DNA of 64,000 bases from an uncultured Schlesneria sp. (GTDB lineage Bacteria; Planctomycetota; Planctomycetia; Planctomycetales; Planctomycetaceae), in NCBI GenBank assembly GCA_903834925.1, contig CAILLA010000057.1:62001-126000 (forward strand), in the 5' to 3' direction. Under the pieces are notes generated by a model. It did no database searches and was not told the DNA's origin. It saw only the letters and a program-made list of their open reading frames with translations. Both the position numbers and the translations under genes were made by a program. Shown here one piece after another: positions 7,058 through 16,356 of this stretch. The stretch's first letter is position 1; the number at the start of each line of letters is the position of its first letter.

Positions 7058-8590
7058 TTAGCGGGCAGAAACCTTTTCTTCCGTCTTGCGACAGTCTTCG
7101 GCGTATTGTTTGTCGAGGTCAGAGAAATCGACGCCGGTCAATTCTTCGAGGCTGTACGCTCGTTCGCGAGTCCGTTCGTCGCTGCTGTAGAGTTGTGAAA
7201 GATGCTTGACAAGTGCCTCACGATAGCGGCCCTTGTCGTAATGCATGAAGAATCGAGCCAATCCGGCTGCCTGAGTGTAGTTCTTGGCGAGTTCGGGCGA
7301 TCGTTGAAACTCGTTCATTCCATACCCTGAGAACTCGCGCAGGGGGACGTAATAATTCTTGTCTAAAAGGTTTTGTCTGGCACCAGCAAAACGGACGTAA
7401 TTCGCGTCTCCGAGTGAAAACGAGCCATTTCTGCGATGAAATGACTCCATGTAACAAGCAATTCCTTCAATGATCCAGAAATGGTTCTTTTCTCCGATTG
7501 CTCGATTTGCATGATGACTTTCAAAGAACAATTGGTGGGTCGCCTCATGAAACAGCGTCCCTCCCTGTTCGTTTGCGTTGTCATCGTAGAAGTGAGCAAC
7601 GCGGTCGTTGATCATATAAACACCGTTTGTCTGATCGATTGACGGAAAGACCCTTTTCAATCGATTTACATATTCTTCCCGCGTTCGATAGAAATGAACG
7701 ATATAAGGTTTCGCATCGGCACGTACCGATTTCCCAGTCCCGTCGAATAATTTTTTCAGTTGTTCAGGAGTGTTAAAGAATCCCGCGAATGTCTCTTGAA
7801 AGACGACATAGAAATCTTCCAGAGCTTTCCCCATTTCGACCCCTTTTTCAAGACTGACATTCGTCTTGATCAGGTAGTGGTCGGTACGAACTTCCCAGGC
7901 AGAATTGAAATCACGCCTTCGCTCCTTTTCTTTCTCTGCGGAAATCCAGCGCCCTTGGAAGTTTCGCTCACCACCGATGTATCTCTCGACATGCGATCTT
8001 GGGAGCCAGCCAAATTCTTCGTGCCAGACATTTCCCTTCAGCTTCATCTGCGAGAAAGCGAAAGGAGTCACCCATTCGTTTCCCATGCGGACGAACCCGA
8101 GAATTCGGCGAACTTGGGGGTGGTCAGAATCGTGAATCGCAGCTTCGCGAACAAGATTGTAGGCGTAGCTTGGGAAACCCTGATTCAATGCCTGGCGAGA
8201 CTGCATGTACAGATCTTTGGCGTATTCAGTCTCCAGATTGCGAAGCTGGGTTTGCCAATAGCGTTCGTCACCGGCCACACCTGGCAAAATCTCTTGGTGA
8301 AGTTCCGAAGGAAGTTTATCAACGCGTAGCGATTGTGGTTCGGGAAGAATGACGCGAGAACGAACCTTGGCCGTAGCATCCGTTAATGATTTTTCGTCGC
8401 AGAACTGGGCGAGTTTTTCGATTTGATTCGAAAATTCGCGGAATCGTTCTTTATGCCGTTCCTGCACGATTTGAAGAGAATTTCGACCTTTGGCCGATTG
8501 AGCGAGAAGTGGGACCTGACACACGGTGAACAATAAGGCCATTAGCCCAAACAATTTTGCCAATCGACCAATTTGTCGCACGAAAATCAT
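7058..8590 (-). CDS. DUF1570 protein with metallopeptidase-like HExxH motif
   Basis: 510 residues with an N-terminal signal segment (LFGLMALLFTVCQVPLLAQS). The N-terminal half is helical (QSRQALNQGFPSYAYNLVREA). The C-terminal half carries HEATHQLFFE at about residue 348, then a downstream Glu in WIIEGIACYMESF, the gluzincin-like arrangement of DUF1570 proteins, followed by LARFFMHYDKGRYREALVKHL. It is most likely an exported zinc peptidase or a degenerate relative; substrate unknown. Single gene. Confidence 0.85.
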   Translation of the reverse strand: MIFVRQIGRLAKLFGLMALLFTVCQVPLLAQSAKGRNSLQIVQERHKERFREFSNQIEKLAQFCDEKSLTDATAKVRSRVILPEPQSLRVDKLPSELHQEILPGVAGDERYWQTQLRNLETEYAKDLYMQSRQALNQGFPSYAYNLVREAAIHDSDHPQVRRILGFVRMGNEWVTPFAFSQMKLKGNVWHEEFGWLPRSHVERYIGGERNFQGRWISAEKEKERRRDFNSAWEVRTDHYLIKTNVSLEKGVEMGKALEDFYVVFQETFAGFFNTPEQLKKLFDGTGKSVRADAKPYIVHFYRTREEYVNRLKRVFPSIDQTNGVYMINDRVAHFYDDNANEQGGTLFHEATHQLFFESHHANRAIGEKNHFWIIEGIACYMESFHRRNGSFSLGDANYVRFAGARQNLLDKNYYVPLREFSGYGMNEFQRSPELAKNYTQAAGLARFFMHYDKGRYREALVKHLSQLYSSDERTRERAYSLEELTGVDFSDLDKQYAEDCRKTEEKVSAR

Positions 8591-8989
8591 CTTCGTCTCA
8601 TTTTCCGGCAGTCGCCCATCAACATCGGCGTTCTCGTCAGTGGAAGTCTATCATAAGAAACTATGGCAAATGTTGATAGACGAATTGACTGTATCGTGAG
8701 GGCAAGGCTGGCCTGATGAAACGACGAGAAGATGGGATGTTTGAGTTGTTGGGAACGACCTGTTTTTGGAACAGAAAGGGACGATGATCGGTGCCACTGG
8801 CGGCTGCTTCCAGCTGCCAGTGGCTTTTCTTTCGTTGCAGGAAAGCAGGAGAAATGTCGAGCGAATTCACACGCCAGTGGCACAGATCGCAGGGAGGACA
8901 TGTTGTCTCAATGAACGACTTCGACTAAAAGCCGATATTCGGGCTTATTCCCGAGGAACGAACCGAGCACACGGCGAAAGGACGCGCCG
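8591..8989. other. Intergenic region holding one palindromic element
   Basis: 399 bp between divergent genes. The only structure seen is the repeat at 8791-8883. Both promoters must lie here, but no clear -35/-10 pair could be assigned by eye. Short open frames here have no recognisable composition or ribosome-binding site. Confidence 0.6.
8791..8883. repeat. Bipartite palindromic element, CCACTGGC stem type
   Basis: Opens GTGCCACTGGCGGCTG and closes ACGCCAGTGGCAC. The left half folds on itself as CCACTGGC / GCCAGTGG with an inner GCTG / CAGC pair. The termini are those of the other elements, with another stem sequence. Confidence 0.65.
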
Positions 8990-10723
8990 ATGAAACACTG
9001 GTGGCTGTGGTTGGCTGGTGAACAGTCAACTATGACCGAATTGAAAAGCCAACACGCCTGCCTCTCAGGCAATGCTGGTGAAACGACGACGATTTCAATC
9101 CCCAATCAAGTAAGCCTGAATCGCATGCTCGGGCTATTTGTCCTGGTCGGGGTCCTGGCGCGAACGATCCGATACTACCTTTGTTTTCCCCTCTGGGACG
9201 ACGAAAGTTTTCTTTGCGTCAACTTGATCGATCGTAGTTTCACTCAGTTATTGCAACCGCTGGATTTCCATCAGGTCGCACCCGTCCTGTTTTTGTGGAT
9301 CGAGCGAGCGGCAGTCAAGATCTTTGGGTTTTCTGAATATTCGTTGCGTTTGATCCCGTTCATTTGTTCGATCATCAGTCTGTTCTTGTTTCGTCGAGTG
9401 GCCCAGAGACTTCTGTCGGGCCCAGCCCTGCTATTCGCCGTCGCCGTTTTTGCCGTCTCCTATCCTCAGATTCGGTATGCTGCCGAAGCAAAGCCGTATG
9501 GGACCGACATGTTTCTGTCCCTAGTCATGTTGTCGCTGGTTGTCGAATGGTATGAACGCCGTAATTCCCGATTTCTGTCTGGCTTGGCATTTCTAATGCC
9601 GTTTGCGCTCGGCGCATCGTATCCTGCTGTCTTCGCGGCCGGCGGTCTTAGCCTTGTTGTCGGATCAGTCCTATTGCAGAAAAAAGGGACTGCTGTTGAA
9701 TGGCAAGCGTGGATCGCCTGGAACGTGATGCTGGTCATAAGCTTCGTGGTCTGGTTCAGTCTCGTCGGTCGTGTCCAGAGCGGGGCCGAAGGCGAGTTCA
9801 TGGGTGAGTACTGGAAGCAAAACTTTCCTCCCGTTCGTCAGCCCTGGTTATTGCCGTATTGGCTATTAAAAACCCACGCCAGCGATTTTCTGGCGTATCC
9901 GCTTGGTGGTCCCAATTGGGCCAGCACGCTGACGCTATTCCTTTGTCTTGCCGGTTTGTGGCGACTTGTCGCTCAGAAACAATTCCTGTGGCTCGGATTC
10001 TTGTTTGGACCGGCCGGTCTGCATTTCCTGGCAGCTGCACTTCAGAAATATCCGTACGGAGGTCATGTCAAGTTTTCTCAGTATGTCGCTCCGATGATTT
10101 GCTGTCTGATCGCCGTGGGGATCGTGCAATTTCTCGATTGGCGGTCTCAGTACGGTTATTCGATGAGAAATAGTTTCGCATGGGCGTGTTCGATACTTTT
10201 CATCATTGGACTTGGAGGTGTCGCTCGCGATCTGATCAACCCCTATAAAACAAGGTCGGATGACCGTGCCCGAGCGTTTGCCAGATCTTTCTGGGTCGGA
10301 ACACATTTCGCCGAGGAAGTCGCATGCCTGAAGAGTGACTGGGGTCAGGACTTCATCCCTGAACAGCATCGGGAGTTGAGCTGGTCGGCTCACTTCCTTT
10401 GCAATCACGCGATTGAAGTCGGTCGGTCGCATCTTCGATCCGCAGACCTGAGCCGCGTTTCAGCGACTCGACCACTCAGATGCGTGCTGTATCGCGATGC
10501 CCGGTATGAACTGGATCAAGCGAAATTGGAATCCTGGCTACACCAAATGCAGCAACGGTATGAACTCGTCGCTCATGAAAGCATTCCATTTCCTCGGCTT
10601 GCCAAGGGGGATCGACGTCTCGTTACGATGGAATACATCGATTCGTATAAGTTCGTGCCACGAGACGGAGTAGCGAGCAATTTGCCTCCGATGGCCGACG
10701 GCCGCAAGACAACTTCGAGATAA
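8990..10723 (+). CDS. Membrane glycosyltransferase, GT39/ArnT-like
   Basis: 577 residues; AAGGA lies nine bases before the ATG. A short cytoplasmic leader is followed by about ten transmembrane helices. After the first helix comes CFPLWDDESFLCVN, with the acidic pair expected in the first periplasmic loop of dolichyl- or polyprenyl-phosphate-sugar-dependent transferases; DFHQVAPVLFLWIERAAV and AAEAKPYGTDMF also fit this fold. These enzymes move a sugar from a lipid-linked donor to a protein or envelope glycan. The gene ends 13 bp before asnB, so the two are probably co-transcribed. Confidence 0.85.
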   Translation: MKHWWLWLAGEQSTMTELKSQHACLSGNAGETTTISIPNQVSLNRMLGLFVLVGVLARTIRYYLCFPLWDDESFLCVNLIDRSFTQLLQPLDFHQVAPVLFLWIERAAVKIFGFSEYSLRLIPFICSIISLFLFRRVAQRLLSGPALLFAVAVFAVSYPQIRYAAEAKPYGTDMFLSLVMLSLVVEWYERRNSRFLSGLAFLMPFALGASYPAVFAAGGLSLVVGSVLLQKKGTAVEWQAWIAWNVMLVISFVVWFSLVGRVQSGAEGEFMGEYWKQNFPPVRQPWLLPYWLLKTHASDFLAYPLGGPNWASTLTLFLCLAGLWRLVAQKQFLWLGFLFGPAGLHFLAAALQKYPYGGHVKFSQYVAPMICCLIAVGIVQFLDWRSQYGYSMRNSFAWACSILFIIGLGGVARDLINPYKTRSDDRARAFARSFWVGTHFAEEVACLKSDWGQDFIPEQHRELSWSAHFLCNHAIEVGRSHLRSADLSRVSATRPLRCVLYRDARYELDQAKLESWLHQMQQRYELVAHESIPFPRLAKGDRRLVTMEYIDSYKFVPRDGVASNLPPMADGRKTTSR

Positions 10724-10736
10724 ACGGTGAGTTTCC

Positions 10737-12737
10737 ATGTGCGGCATCGCTGGCTACATCAGTCTGGATGACTCTCCGGTTGATCGAGAACCGATCGAAC
10801 GAATGGTAACCGCGCTGAAGCACCGCGGTCCGGACGCACAAACCGTCCATCTTGATGGGCAAGTCGGTTTGGGACATGCTCGCCTTTCGATCATCGATTT
10901 GGAAGGCGGACATCAACCGCTCTTTAACGAAGACCGCTCGATCGCAGTTGTTTGTAATGGCGAGATCTACAACTACCGAGAACTGACGGAAACACTTGTC
11001 CGCGATGGCCATCAGTTCCGTACCGGCAGCGATTGCGAAGTCCTGACCCACCTTTGGGAGGAATCGGGACCGCAGATGGTCGATCAGCTTCGAGGGATGT
11101 TCGCCTTCATTTTGTACGATCGACGGCAGGGGATTGTATTCGGGGGACGAGACCGCTTCGGGCAAAAGCCATTATTCTACCATGAAGGCACGAATCGAAT
11201 CGCGTTTGCGTCAGAGATTAAGGGCTTGCTTGTCCTGCCAGAGGTCTCACGAGAACTTGACCCACTGGGACTGGATCAATTCTTGTTTCACCAGTTTGTC
11301 CCTCAGCCGCGAACCCTATTTGCTGGCGTCAAAAAATTGGCTGCTGGCTGTTGTTTTGAGATCAAATTGTCTCCAGCGCGCGAGAACAATTCATTCGTCG
11401 AAACCCAGATCCCTTCCAGTAATGGCATCGTTCATAAAATTCATCCCAATGCGGGAACGGACCTGACGACTGAGAAATCTCATTCGAAGCCCGGTCGTGC
11501 GTCGTTTTTCATCCAGCGTTACTGGAGTCCAACATTCGCTCCTGACGTGACCATGTCCGATTCTGATCATCTGGCGCGAGTCGAAGACGGATTAATCAAC
11601 GCGGTCGAAAGCCACATGGTCGCCGATGTTCCCGTAGGCGTATTTCTGAGTGGCGGAATTGATTCGAGTCTGATCACGGCCCTCGCGGTCAAGTTCAACC
11701 CCGAGCCGCTACAGACCTTTTCGATTTCGTTTCCCGGCAGCGAACATGACGAAGCGCCGTTCGCGAGATCGGTGGCCGCTTCGCTTGGAACAAACCACCG
11801 CGAATTCCCGTTCGAACCGGGCGATATGCGAAAGGTCCTCACGTCAGCCGCAACGTTATTCGATCAACCACTCGCGGACATGGCTGTCCTTCCGCTGATG
11901 GCACTCAGTCGGGCGGCCGCTGAATATGTCAAAGTTGTACTGACTGGAGACGGTGGCGACGAATTGTTTGCCGGTTACCGTAAGTACAAACGAATGGTTG
12001 GCATCCCAGGCCGTTTTCAATGGCTGTCACAAATGAGTTCTCGTCTTTTTCCGATGCATCAGTTGGCAGCCTGCCGTCCTGACCCAATCGGTCTGCGAAA
12101 AATTCAGTCACGTCTGGCAATGGTCATTGCACCACAATGTCGCAGTGAATATCAGCGTCAAAGTTGGGAAGGCTGGGAGCGATTCTCTCTTTACCAGCCC
12201 GACTTCGCGCAGACGGTTATCAATCGCTTCGAATCAATTTCCTTTACCGGCGATCCCGCTGAACACAAGCTGTCGCCGCTGAATCAAGCGTTGAAACGGG
12301 ATCAAGGAACGGTCCTTGCTGATCGGCTTTTGTTAAAAGGTGACTATGCAACAATGGCTTATGGCTTGGAATCGCGTGCCCCATTGCTCGATCACCAACT
12401 CGCCGCAATTGCCGGTAAATTACCCCGCCACTTGAAAACCACCCCCAAAACGACAAAGGTCGCTCTTCGAGAAATTGCCAAACGGTATCTTCCCGATGAG
12501 ATTATCAATCGCCGCAAGAAGGGGTTTTCGATGCCAATCGATCGTTGGTTTCGGACCGACCTGAAAACCTGGGTTCGAAACTGTCTGCTCGACGATTCTG
12601 TTTCACTTCCCCGCTATTTTCAGCGACCCGCGATCGAAAGTCTGTTATCAGAACATGCGGCCGGCAAGAACCATTCGGTGAGGATTCACTCTCTGCTGAC
12701 GTTTGAACTCTGGTGCCGAGCTTACGCAACGCCATAA
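10737..12737 (+). CDS. asnB: Asparagine synthetase (glutamine-hydrolysing)
   Basis: 666 residues. N-terminal glutaminase domain with nucleophile Cys2 (MCGIAGYISL), ALKHRGPDAQ and NGEIYNYREL; C-terminal synthetase domain with the pyrophosphate loop FLSGGIDSSL and GDGGDELFAGY. It converts Asp, Gln and ATP to Asn, or amidates another carboxylate in specialised pathways. The linker between domains has an insert of about 45 residues (ARENNSFVETQ ... SKPGRASFF) not found in typical AsnB. It sits between a glycosyltransferase and a phosphopantetheinyl transferase gene, a setting more like envelope or secondary metabolism than basic Asn supply. Confidence 0.95.
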   Translation: MCGIAGYISLDDSPVDREPIERMVTALKHRGPDAQTVHLDGQVGLGHARLSIIDLEGGHQPLFNEDRSIAVVCNGEIYNYRELTETLVRDGHQFRTGSDCEVLTHLWEESGPQMVDQLRGMFAFILYDRRQGIVFGGRDRFGQKPLFYHEGTNRIAFASEIKGLLVLPEVSRELDPLGLDQFLFHQFVPQPRTLFAGVKKLAAGCCFEIKLSPARENNSFVETQIPSSNGIVHKIHPNAGTDLTTEKSHSKPGRASFFIQRYWSPTFAPDVTMSDSDHLARVEDGLINAVESHMVADVPVGVFLSGGIDSSLITALAVKFNPEPLQTFSISFPGSEHDEAPFARSVAASLGTNHREFPFEPGDMRKVLTSAATLFDQPLADMAVLPLMALSRAAAEYVKVVLTGDGGDELFAGYRKYKRMVGIPGRFQWLSQMSSRLFPMHQLAACRPDPIGLRKIQSRLAMVIAPQCRSEYQRQSWEGWERFSLYQPDFAQTVINRFESISFTGDPAEHKLSPLNQALKRDQGTVLADRLLLKGDYATMAYGLESRAPLLDHQLAAIAGKLPRHLKTTPKTTKVALREIAKRYLPDEIINRRKKGFSMPIDRWFRTDLKTWVRNCLLDDSVSLPRYFQRPAIESLLSEHAAGKNHSVRIHSLLTFELWCRAYATP

Positions 12738-12788
12738 TGTCGAAAACAACAATGGCCTCCGATAGATTTCGTCGATTGCGGTGGAAAA

Positions 12789-13562
12789 GTGATCATTTCA
12801 AATTGGCAACCGATTCGGGTTCCGCTCGAACTCTCGCCCGAGATTGCACACGTCGTTCGGGTGCGACTCGACCTTGCGCATGAACAATGGTTGCCGTTGA
12901 TAGAGCTGCTTAATGACGAAGAGCGAACCCGTGCCGCCCGATTTCGATTTGATGAACCACGACGTCAGTTCGTCATTTGCCGAGCTACGTTAAGACGGCT
13001 TCTAGGAACGATCTGTCATGTTGCTCCTCAAACCATCTCATTTCGAAATGGAAGTCACGGCAAACCAGAACTCTCATTTTACGAGATGAAATTGTCTGTA
13101 CCCCAAATTGAATTCAATGTTTCCCATTCGGGAACAATGGGACTCATCGCCATTGCCGTCGGCGCATCGATCGGAATTGATGTTGAAGAATATGATCCCT
13201 CCGTCAAATTCCTTCAGCTTGCCGAACGATTTTTCGCACCGATGGAAGCGACCGATCTTAAGGGTCTGCAACCCGAGAAGCAGTTGACAGGGTTCTATCG
13301 AGGCTGGACCTGTAAAGAAGCCTATATCAAAGCGAAAGGAAATGGGCTGTCACTCTCGCTGTCCAGTTTTCGAGTCATCATTGATCCAGACCGGCCCGCT
13401 TCACTTCGTCATATCGATGGACAACCCGATGAGCCATGCAATTGGACAACGGAATCATTAGAAGTCAGTAACCATCATGCGGCGGCGGTGATGATCCATA
13501 GACCAGAGTGCCGGATCGCACTCTGGGATTGGCCAGTCGACGGGTCCAATCCAGGAACCTAA
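12789..13562 (+). CDS. 4'-phosphopantetheinyl transferase, Sfp type
   Basis: About 257 residues from a GTG with GGTGG just upstream; this start is tentative. Family motifs are intact: FNVSHSG, GIDVEEYD (Mg ligands) and WTCKEAYIKAKG. The enzyme transfers the phosphopantetheine arm of CoA to a Ser of a carrier protein. It is 51 bp after asnB and probably the last gene of that transcript. No acyl- or peptidyl-carrier protein, polyketide synthase or peptide synthetase is in the window. Confidence 0.92.
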   Translation: MIISNWQPIRVPLELSPEIAHVVRVRLDLAHEQWLPLIELLNDEERTRAARFRFDEPRRQFVICRATLRRLLGTICHVAPQTISFRNGSHGKPELSFYEMKLSVPQIEFNVSHSGTMGLIAIAVGASIGIDVEEYDPSVKFLQLAERFFAPMEATDLKGLQPEKQLTGFYRGWTCKEAYIKAKGNGLSLSLSSFRVIIDPDRPASLRHIDGQPDEPCNWTTESLEVSNHHAAAVMIHRPECRIALWDWPVDGSNPGT

Positions 13563-13623
13563 CGAGGAACTTTTTCGAACTGCGCCGAATTGAAGCGTCA
13601 ATTCATCGGGCTTCGTCGAGTTT

Positions 13624-13650
13624 GAAACTTGACTCAATGCGTCAAGTTTC
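13624..13650. terminator. Hairpin between convergent genes
   Basis: GAAACTTGAC and GTCAAGTTTC form a perfect 10 bp stem around TCAATGC. A near copy is at 46061-46087. It lies 3' of the phosphopantetheinyl transferase gene and faces the convergent J-like gene, so it may end transcription, although no long T run follows. Confidence 0.5.
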
Positions 13651-13687
13651 AGCGGTCTTTATGACTTATGGACGTAACATTATCTGC

Positions 13688-13722: not shown

Positions 13723-14754
13723 TTATTTTTTGTCTTTGACATGCGTAGTGTAGAACATCAAAGCAAGCGGGATTCCAATCACGACTGAGGAAATATAGGG
13801 GAAATATTGCACGAAACGTGGCAGGAAGTTGCGATAAACCATATCCCATAAGACAAAGTTGTCCAGAAGCGCCGGGATCGCGAATGCCCAGCACATGAAG
13901 ATCATGCCCAGTTGTTTTCGCTGGGCCTTTTCACCTTCACTCAACTCTGCGACTGCCACCTTTGGTTCAGAAGCACTATTCTTCTTGCCTGCAACTTTGC
14001 CTGTCCCTTTTGCCGGGGCGGCAACTTCCTTCCGCATTCCTTCGGCATAATTCGTGGCAATCGCCTGATTAATCGATTTACCCGACGCAATCACCGGCCG
14101 AATCGGCTTATGGAACCTGAGTCGAACTTCGTCTTCAAGTTCCGAATCAGGCTCGTCGGCACAGGCAACAACGACGGCATTTTCTTCGATAAACAGTGGG
14201 AGACAATTGTGGCGACGCACGACGTTTTTCGGCAACAAGTCCATTGCGTCGTTTTCGGGAACGAGATCGGCAAGATCGACATACGATCGACCAAGTTCAT
14301 TGGCGTACGCTCGTGCGGCAACCTCATGGTCCACGTACTTGAGCTGCACAATCGCATCACGAATCGAAAGACCAGTTCGATCCGCGTGAGCTTTCGCCTC
14401 TTTCGCCTGGTCTGACGTGATCGCCTTCTCATCCTGAAGGTACGACGTCATGGGCCGACGACCCGATTCGTCCCGGTCGTCGATCACGCGACCGAGGCTT
14501 CGGTCGTAATCCTGCTTTAACTCTTCGTCCGTCAGACACAACATCGCTTTGGCAAGCTCGTTGAGCAGCGTCTGTGACTCGTTGGAATACGTACCTGACG
14601 CAAACTTGCGTACGTGCGTATTCAACTTTTTATAGTACTTCCGAATCTTATCGACATCGTCTTCGAACTGAACGAGACGAAGCAGTTGATAATGATTCGG
14701 CGGACGCTGATCTTCCGGGATACCCAGCCACTCTTTGTAAACGTCGATTGCCAC
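13723..14754 (-). CDS. J-like / GspE-N domain membrane protein (Hsp70 partner candidate)
   Basis: 343 residues in three parts. Residues about 18-88 look like a J domain (NHYQLLRLVQFEDDVDKI ... LTDEELKQDYDRSLG), but the HPD tripeptide that activates Hsp70 is absent (HVRKF stands there). Residues about 110-235 resemble the N-terminal domain of GspE/PilB ATPases (ITSDQAKEAKAHADRTGLSI, LPKNVVRRHNCLPLF), without any ATPase domain. After a Lys/Ala-rich linker come two transmembrane helices (FMCWAFAIPALLDNFVLW; ISSVVIGIPLALMFYTT). It lies 24 bp downstream of an Hsp70 gene, so the two are probably made together. Function unknown; an Hsp70 membrane adaptor is my inference. Confidence 0.75.
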   Translation of the reverse strand: MAIDVYKEWLGIPEDQRPPNHYQLLRLVQFEDDVDKIRKYYKKLNTHVRKFASGTYSNESQTLLNELAKAMLCLTDEELKQDYDRSLGRVIDDRDESGRRPMTSYLQDEKAITSDQAKEAKAHADRTGLSIRDAIVQLKYVDHEVAARAYANELGRSYVDLADLVPENDAMDLLPKNVVRRHNCLPLFIEENAVVVACADEPDSELEDEVRLRFHKPIRPVIASGKSINQAIATNYAEGMRKEVAAPAKGTGKVAGKKNSASEPKVAVAELSEGEKAQRKQLGMIFMCWAFAIPALLDNFVLWDMVYRNFLPRFVQYFPYISSVVIGIPLALMFYTTHVKDKK

Positions 14755-14778
14755 CGGGAAAACCTCCAGTTTTTGGTG

Positions 14779-16356
14779 CTACTCGACTTGATAGTCCTTG
14801 GCGAGCAACTCGAAGTTATTGACACCTTGATCAGACAATCCCGACGCACGAACGATTTCGGTCTCGGCGACTCGATTTCCCGTCAGTTCCTTCGCGACAG
14901 CACTGATACGTCCATTTGCGTCGTAACTGTAGGTAACTTCCACTGGAGAACCTGCAGGCAAGTTCGATGGCAACCCGACAATCTGGAAATCACCGATCTG
15001 TGTACACGCTTCTGGATCACTCGCATCCCCTTCGAGGATATAAACGTGAATCGTCTTCTGGTTCGCAGAATTCGTCACGAATTTCTGGCTGATGCTGTAA
15101 GGGATCGCCGAGTTTCTCGGGATCATGATGTGGTTAATCTTGCGAGTCCGATCCTCGGGGCTTGAAACCTTGACCCCCAGCGAATGCGAATTGACGTCGC
15201 TCGTCTGCACCGACCGCAATCGTGCAGTGACGAGTGCGCTTAGTCCTTCGATACCTCGGTTCTCGCGGGCTTCCAGAATGGCGGCGTGAATCGCAGCCCC
15301 TTGGGCCACCGCTTCTTCCGGACGAAGCTCACGAGACGGCTTTCGCTGACAGATTTCCGTCAGCATCAATTCCACTGCGGGCATGTAGGTCGATCCACCG
15401 ACCAGAACGACTTCATCGAGAACTCCAGGGTCGACGCCCGCCTGTTGAAGTACAAGCTCTGTCGTATCGCGCGTCCGTTGCAACAAGTCGGACGTCATTC
15501 GCTCGAAATCCTTTCGAGTGAATTGCAACGTCAACGTTTTTCCGTGGAAGTAGACTGAGAGAGGGACTTGAGTCTTGGTACTAAGGGCGCGTTTGGCGTC
15601 TTCACATTCCACCGTAAAGTTACGCATGGCTTCCGCGTCAGAGCGAGGGTCATCGCTAAATTTTCGGAAGAATTGTTCGGCCACGTGGTCTGTAATTCGC
15701 TTCGTCCAGTCGATCCCCCCCAGCATCACGTCACCGTCTGTCGCTAACACTTTGAACTGTGTTGGCGTGTATCGGACGACGGTCACGTCGAACGTTCCAC
15801 CCCCCAAGTCGTACACGAGGATGGTTTTTGATTCCTGCTTCAGGTCCGATCGGCCCAGTTCGCCCTTCATCCAGGCATAAGCTAAGGTTGCGGCGGTTGG
15901 CTCATTGATGATATCGACGACGTTCAGCCCGGCGATGCGACCTGCGTCCTGAGTTGCCTTACGACGGACGTCGTTGAAGTAATACGGAACCGTGATGACG
16001 GCGTTGGCGATCGGTCCAATCTGCTTTTCGGCATCCTGCTTCAGTTTTTTCAGAATCAGCGCCGAGAGAAACTCTGCGCTCAGTTTCTTGTTTTGGTAGA
16101 CAACGAAAAAGTCTTTGTTACCCATCTGTCGCTTGATCGCTTCCACGATGTGATCGGGCGATTCTTGCGAGATTCGTTCGAAGGTCGGCCCGACGACGAC
16201 TTGACCGTCTTCTCCCAACAGAACCACGGACGGAGTGATATTTCTTCCGTCGGCGTTCAACAGCGAAATCGGCTTGCCATCTTTCGTGAGCTGAGCAATC
16301 GCCGAGTATGTTGTTCCCAAATCGATACCGACCGTGTGGCCTGCAAGAAATTTCAT
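14779..16356 (-). CDS. Hsp70-family chaperone with truncated lid
   Basis: 525 residues. The nucleotide-binding domain is intact: GIDLGTTYSAIAQL, DLGGGTFDVTVV, INEPTAATLAYAW and VLVGGSTYMPAV. A beta-type substrate-binding domain follows (SHSLGVKVSS ... IPYSISQKFVT), but the helical lid of about 100 residues found in DnaK is lacking; the protein stops at LLAKDYQVE. This resembles specialised Hsp70s rather than housekeeping DnaK. No grpE or true dnaJ is adjacent; the partner candidate is the J-like gene 24 bp downstream. No CIRCE-type operator is seen in the 270 bp upstream. Confidence 0.93.
   Translation of the reverse strand: MKFLAGHTVGIDLGTTYSAIAQLTKDGKPISLLNADGRNITPSVVLLGEDGQVVVGPTFERISQESPDHIVEAIKRQMGNKDFFVVYQNKKLSAEFLSALILKKLKQDAEKQIGPIANAVITVPYYFNDVRRKATQDAGRIAGLNVVDIINEPTAATLAYAWMKGELGRSDLKQESKTILVYDLGGGTFDVTVVRYTPTQFKVLATDGDVMLGGIDWTKRITDHVAEQFFRKFSDDPRSDAEAMRNFTVECEDAKRALSTKTQVPLSVYFHGKTLTLQFTRKDFERMTSDLLQRTRDTTELVLQQAGVDPGVLDEVVLVGGSTYMPAVELMLTEICQRKPSRELRPEEAVAQGAAIHAAILEARENRGIEGLSALVTARLRSVQTSDVNSHSLGVKVSSPEDRTRKINHIMIPRNSAIPYSISQKFVTNSANQKTIHVYILEGDASDPEACTQIGDFQIVGLPSNLPAGSPVEVTYSYDANGRISAVAKELTGNRVAETEIVRASGLSDQGVNNFELLAKDYQVE

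Follow-up and report, generated by a model that had tools for sequence, protein, structure and literature searches.

Does an Hsp70 that ends without a helical lid work together with the protein encoded directly behind it, in which a J-like domain lacking His-Pro-Asp (HPD) is joined to a secretion-type domain and two membrane helices, and if so, by what contact? The question is raised by two minus-strand genes in the window, the 64,000-nucleotide stretch of DNA analyzed here, for which uncultured Schlesneria are the nearest named relatives (87% identity). A first-pass annotation, made from the sequence, had described two open reading frames 24 bp apart, and both were found, with the Hsp70 gene upstream (Table 1). 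At the pair, a search for the CIRCE heat-shock element found none, and a promoter scan gave nothing above chance. The inverted repeat beyond the pair is a possible terminator, with a scan score not above chance. Consecutive plus-strand genes of the window (8990-13562) encode a membrane glycosyltransferase-like, an asparagine-synthase-type, and an Sfp-type phosphopantetheinyl transferase protein and possibly form a small biosynthetic unit.

Table 1. Positions of features in the window, and of GrpE genes at two other planctomycete loci
Feature	Position	Strand	Remark
Lidless Hsp70 gene, 525 aa	14779..16356	-	Pfam HSP70 E=1.4e-115; AF2 model compared with DnaK
Nucleotide-binding domain, residues 1-364	15265..16356	-	Checked ATP-site positions all conserved
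Asp148, at the DnaK Arg167 position	15913..15915	-	HPD-aspartate receptor position
His357, at the DnaK Gln378 position	15286..15288	-	Second HPD-aspartate receptor position
Lengthened interdomain linker, residues 365-392	15181..15264	-	Extra predicted helix 374-381
Substrate-binding beta-sandwich, residues 393-508	14833..15180	-	
One C-terminal helix, then the conserved YxVE terminus, residues 509-525	14782..14832	-	Rest of lid missing
Shine-Dalgarno-like GGAGG of J-like gene	14763..14767	-	Inside the 24-bp gap; 8 nt before GTG
J-like/MshEN-fold/two-helix membrane protein gene, 343 aa	13723..14754	-	GTG start
HPD-less J-like domain, model residues 1-90	14482..14751	-	J-domain chains Z 8-10
Arg-Lys-Phe at the His-Pro-Asp site	14602..14610	-	Arg invariant, 45/45
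MshEN/PilB-N fold, model residues 96-241	14029..14466	-	c-di-GMP motif residues lost
First predicted membrane helix, model residues 272-309	13825..13938	-	
Second predicted membrane helix, model residues 320-338	13738..13794	-	
Inverted repeat, 12-bp stem	13622..13652	.	Between the end of the pair and a convergent phosphopantetheinyl transferase gene
GrpE genes beside lidless Hsp70s	L122 7536-8120; L126 4102-4701		PF01025 7e-17 and 2e-10

The upstream protein belongs to the Hsp70 superfamily, in that it combines an actin-like ATPase domain with its catalytic residues and a beta-sandwich peptide-binding domain, and it is matched by the Pfam HSP70 profile. In its AF2 model (pLDDT 91.3, pTM 0.89), residues 6-525 superpose on DnaK 2-527 with a Z score of 51.5. 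The ATP-site residues D8, T11, K70, E171, D194, and T199 (DnaK numbering) are all kept, as are the peptide-pocket residues F426 and I438, the latter as valine. The model has one helix only (509-521) after the beta-sandwich, with 17 residues beyond DnaK position 508 compared with 130 in DnaK itself. The predicted structure, which stops after the first lid helix, confirms the earlier proposal that the helical lid (SBD-alpha) is absent. Truncation or frameshift as the source of the loss was ruled out because orthologues share the same C-terminus, YxVE/D followed by a stop.

The downstream protein was also modeled with AF2 (pLDDT 89.2). Residues 16-90 form a J fold with the helix II-III hairpin (Z 10.2 against 6rzy), which compares with the DnaJ J-domain bound to DnaK (5nro_B) at Z 8.7 and an rmsd of 1.7 over 62 residues; the Pfam DnaJ profile scores 13.6 bits, under its cut-off of 27.8. 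HPD is kept in none of 45 orthologues (0/45), which carry R-K-F/Y instead. The part first likened to GspE-N is the full two-lobed MshEN/PilB N-terminal fold, more than the small N1 domain (Pfam MshEN E=2.4e-17; 5htl Z 16.1; a further match Z 15.2). An ATPase domain of the GspE/PilB type is absent, the protein ending after the MshEN domain and two helices. The initial description had anticipated this order of parts, from a J-like domain without HPD to a GspE/PilB-N-like domain without an ATPase and two membrane helices, and the models agree with it, both folds being present. In comparison with the c-di-GMP double motif RLGxx..LxxxLxxQ (PMC5013675), the Arg, Gly, and Gln positions are replaced in nearly all 45 orthologues, Arg1, Arg30, Gly32, and Gln24 being kept in 0/45, and the NCBIfam c-di-GMP_motif profile scores 12.7 bits against a cut-off of 38. 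On these motif residues, c-di-GMP sensing by the MshEN domain was ruled out. With the MshEN domain, the protein has borrowed from secretion ATPases a module that binds proteins or nucleotides.

Co-occurrence of the two genes, a check that the first-pass annotation had proposed, was surveyed in Planctomycetota, the phylum to which the surveys of the pair, the Hsp70 lineage, and the J-like domain were confined, and the neighborhood is conserved in relatives. In a first draw of 294 genomes from the phylum, all 17 members of the window's own family carry both genes, which are adjacent in 16. Among 397 genomes of the class, both genes occur in 132, in about 100 of them side by side, and members of eight or more families keep the arrangement; 128 and 96 of these, respectively, come from listed coordinates, with G167, G371, G407, and G601 added by direct reading, and the counts are not independent, since most of the genomes are from one family. 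Wherever pairs were read, the Hsp70 gene comes first. About 30 genomes from several genera keep both genes even though they are separated or on different contigs.

Across families, the pair has no recurrent neighbors besides each other, and no genes of type T2SS or T4P recur near it. This bears on the suggestion that the pair acts on secretion or pilus parts, in which case the MshEN domain would dock on an inner-membrane platform (GspL-, PilM-, or PilC-like) as a client-delivery adaptor and the Hsp70 would assemble or disassemble the machine. The clarity of the MshEN/PilB-N fold favors such an adaptor, as does the docking of the MshEN-type domain of GspE/PilB on partners, according to PDB titles (GspE-GspL, PilB-PilZ). 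However, many unrelated proteins carry a fused MshEN-type domain (PMC5013675), other J-like partners of the lidless Hsp70s bear other modules, such as FGE-sulfatase or a coiled coil, and the expected neighbors are missing. A secretion or pilus operon was set aside for that last reason. What possible role there is in secretion or piliation is suggested by the fold; with its c-di-GMP site lost and no such neighbors, this part of the first-pass annotation found no backing, and we regard the adaptor as improbable.

The pair is not inseparable. Two genera keep the J-MshEN protein where only R167-type Hsp70s, DnaK- or HscC-like, were found (G334, G447, G571, G325, and G641), and their J-like loop has diverged (loci L092, L093, L094, L089, and L091). 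This persistence without a detectable lidless Hsp70, together with the unlinking of the pair in some genera, is what speaks for simple co-expression, for example in a shared envelope or budding function, of two proteins that are not an Hsp70 and its cochaperone. A J fold that recurs beside Hsp70 throughout the phylum with differing C-terminal modules is hard to explain without direct contact, and co-expression alone seems very unlikely. A small conserved protein of ~105 aa is encoded near J-MshEN in outgroup families (L078, L081, L087, L089, and L091, and also L093).

To which Hsp70 group does the window protein belong? In a maximum likelihood tree from an alignment of 60 Hsp70s, it falls in a lineage outside DnaK, HscA, and HscC (SH-aLRT/UFBoot 100/100). 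Orthology to HscC was ruled out by this tree and because the genome has an HscC-like system besides. Lineage members usually stop 16-18 residues past DnaK position 508, and some have gained unrelated C-terminal tails. They keep the ATP-site residues and, mostly, the peptide pocket; like HscC, they lack both the GrpE signature loop and the D211 loop and have a lengthened loop L1,2. At two loci in deep planctomycete lineages, GrpE genes lie directly upstream of lidless Hsp70s, with the GrpE signature loop absent (Table 1). Two unusual proteins were also seen: a D167-group Hsp70 of 742 aa that carries a non-lid tail of 220 residues and has no J-like gene in its vicinity (L115 7393-9621), and an 840-aa fusion of an N-terminal stretch bearing a kinase-like glycine loop to a lidless Hsp70 (L047 8387-10909), followed 3 bp later by a gene for a 1081-aa J-like protein and then by a second lidless Hsp70.

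At nine of 20 distant loci encoding lidless Hsp70s, a neighboring gene encodes a J-like domain, and further linked pairs were found in G037, G000 (contig C237), G583, G494, and G340. The modules of these partners vary, among them a coiled coil with C-terminal membrane helices, FGE-sulfatase, and large unknown domains, and most of the partners have at least one membrane helix. Some genomes encode about ten J-like-domain proteins, mostly unlinked to Hsp70. At locus L124 (2842-5016 and 1-940), J-like domains flank a lidless Hsp70 gene on either side, one fused to FGE-sulfatase (SUMF1-like) and the other, truncated where the contig stops, similar in appearance. A different arrangement is seen at L113 (G000:C173:40000-56000, 7910-12232), where three consecutive genes encode a 581-aa HscC-like Hsp70 that retains R167/Q378, an unknown protein of 322 aa, and a KPE J protein.

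In E. coli, the HPD aspartate touches R167 and Q378 of DnaK, and the histidine touches the linker backbone at L391 (PMC8215388). Both arginine and glutamine are kept in DnaK, HscA, HscC, and the HscC-like Hsp70 of the window's genome, and the linker of DnaK, HscA, and HscC is of the VLLLD/VILTD type. The lidless lineage has D/S/G/A at position 167 and H/Y/W/F at 378, except for an early branch (G013) with K and Q, and the VLLLD linker is replaced; in the window protein it reads VQTSDVNSHS compared with VLLLDVTPLS in DnaK. On the other side, the "His" position of the J-like domain is R/K in 9/9 systems with D167 and Q in 8/8 systems with S/G167. The corresponding motif is HPD in DnaJ and HscB, HPE in DjlB/DjlC, and KPE in the HscC-like system of the same genome. 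At the level of residues, this is a reciprocal change on the two sides of what would be one contact. The D167 clade has support of 98.7/100 in the 60-sequence tree, and the correlation between residue 167 and the J loop maps to one split of that tree, and therefore does not represent many independent events. The acidic patch that steers J domains on DnaK (E206, D211, E217, and D477) is lost or basic in the lidless Hsp70s, and helix II of the J-like domain stays basic; the canonical DnaK-DnaJ pose may therefore not be kept. The earlier account of the pair stood, but it had missed both the loss of the HPD-receptor residues from the Hsp70 and the phylum-wide lineage with its HPD-less J neighbors.

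An HPD-less J-like protein might instead bind without activating, as a Pam16-like brake, regulator, or scaffold, with activation left to another, HPD-type J protein. Apart from HPE, known replacements of HPD as a rule do away with ATPase stimulation, and Pam16, which has DKE, is an inhibitor-type pseudo-J associated with the membrane (PMC13254874); the genome also has candidates for an HPD-type DnaJ, five other loci scoring above the DnaJ cut-off. Yet R167, Q378, and the VLLLD linker, which an HPD-type J protein needs, are the very features lost from this Hsp70, no HPD-type J gene is linked to it, whereas a KPE-type J protein is encoded near the genome's HscC-like Hsp70. We therefore consider a brake unlikely.

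The explanation that we prefer, with a probability of roughly 0.6, is that the two proteins form a dedicated Hsp70 chaperone pair, located at the cytoplasmic membrane, with rebuilt docking and the MshEN domain as docking module. The C-terminal helical hairpin would anchor the J-like protein, leaving the J-like and MshEN domains in the cytosol. The J-like domain would recruit the lidless Hsp70 and stimulate its ATPase through a lineage-specific contact, with Arg/Lys of the J loop opposite Asp at 167 in place of the contact of HPD with Arg167, Gln378, and the linker. The MshEN domain, as a protein-docking module and not a c-di-GMP sensor, may pick the client or site. Peptide binding and release by an Hsp70 without a lid would be fast, and the protein could serve as a holdase or remodeling factor for membrane-bound clients and not as a trapping foldase.

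Counted in favor of such a pair are the co-occurrence and frequent adjacency of the genes in the class, retention of both genes where they are separated, the separate lineage, the lost receptor residues and the matched residues at 167 and in the J loop, the J-like neighbors at distant loci, mostly with membrane helices, the diverged J-like loop in the two genera with only R167-type Hsp70s, and the precedent of HscC-DjlC. Counted against it are the lost acidic patch, a correlation derived from one split, the inactivity of HPD replacements elsewhere (PMC13254874), and the J-MshEN proteins without a detectable lidless Hsp70. The modeled folds and the conserved adjacency support the initial view of a previously undescribed, membrane-tethered chaperone pair, and no description of a planctomycete lidless Hsp70 or a J/MshEN fusion was found in the open-access literature.

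HscC with tail-anchored DjlC is the tested precedent for a membrane-directed accessory Hsp70 in E. coli (PMC8215388). The likeness of HscC-DjlC/DjlB to the pair is one of architecture alone, the families being others by tree and motif: an accessory Hsp70 with a short C-terminus, deleted GrpE signature and D211 loop and an L1,2 insertion, encoded close to a tail-anchored J-type partner. HscC differs in that it retains R167 and Q378, its linker is hydrophobic, its C-terminal region spans 81 residues, and it lies on another branch of the tree; DjlB/DjlC carry HPE, not RKF, and no MshEN domain. By analogy, the pair is best read as following the logic of HscC-DjlC, but with what would be an HPD-independent docking interface. 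With DnaK-DnaJ it shares the nucleotide-binding domain and beta-sandwich fold, the ATP-site residues, and the J fold, whereas the lid, the GrpE signature, the HPD-receptor residues, and HPD are gone. Pam16/Tim16 and other type IV (HPD-less) J proteins similarly have a J fold with replaced HPD and are membrane-associated near an Hsp70, but Pam16 partners HPD-bearing Pam18 and a normal mitochondrial Hsp70, whereas here the Hsp70 has changed too (PMC13254874). The MshEN c-di-GMP receptors MshE, PilB, PilF, and NfrB have the same two-lobed fold, but in the J-like protein their conserved c-di-GMP residues and any ATPase or glycosyltransferase domain are missing (PMC5013675).

Three types of prokaryotic Hsp70 have been described so far (PMC8215388), to which the lineage adds one that works without a lid. 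A wider reading, tentative and held at slightly less than even odds, is that a fourth lineage of Hsp70s arose in Planctomycetota. J-type domains independent of HPD would drive its ATPase cycle, the two sides of the contact would have been rebuilt jointly, and the lineage would be used in membrane-tethered systems whose client modules can be exchanged (MshEN, FGE-sulfatase, coiled coil, and others). Hsp70s are regarded as having an invariant trigger in HPD, and a recent review describes the motifs that replace it in type IV J proteins as "enigmatic" (PMC13254874). An HPD-less J domain with its own Hsp70, itself without the HPD receptor, would allow a direct test of whether an Hsp70 can be driven by a J domain through a different contact.
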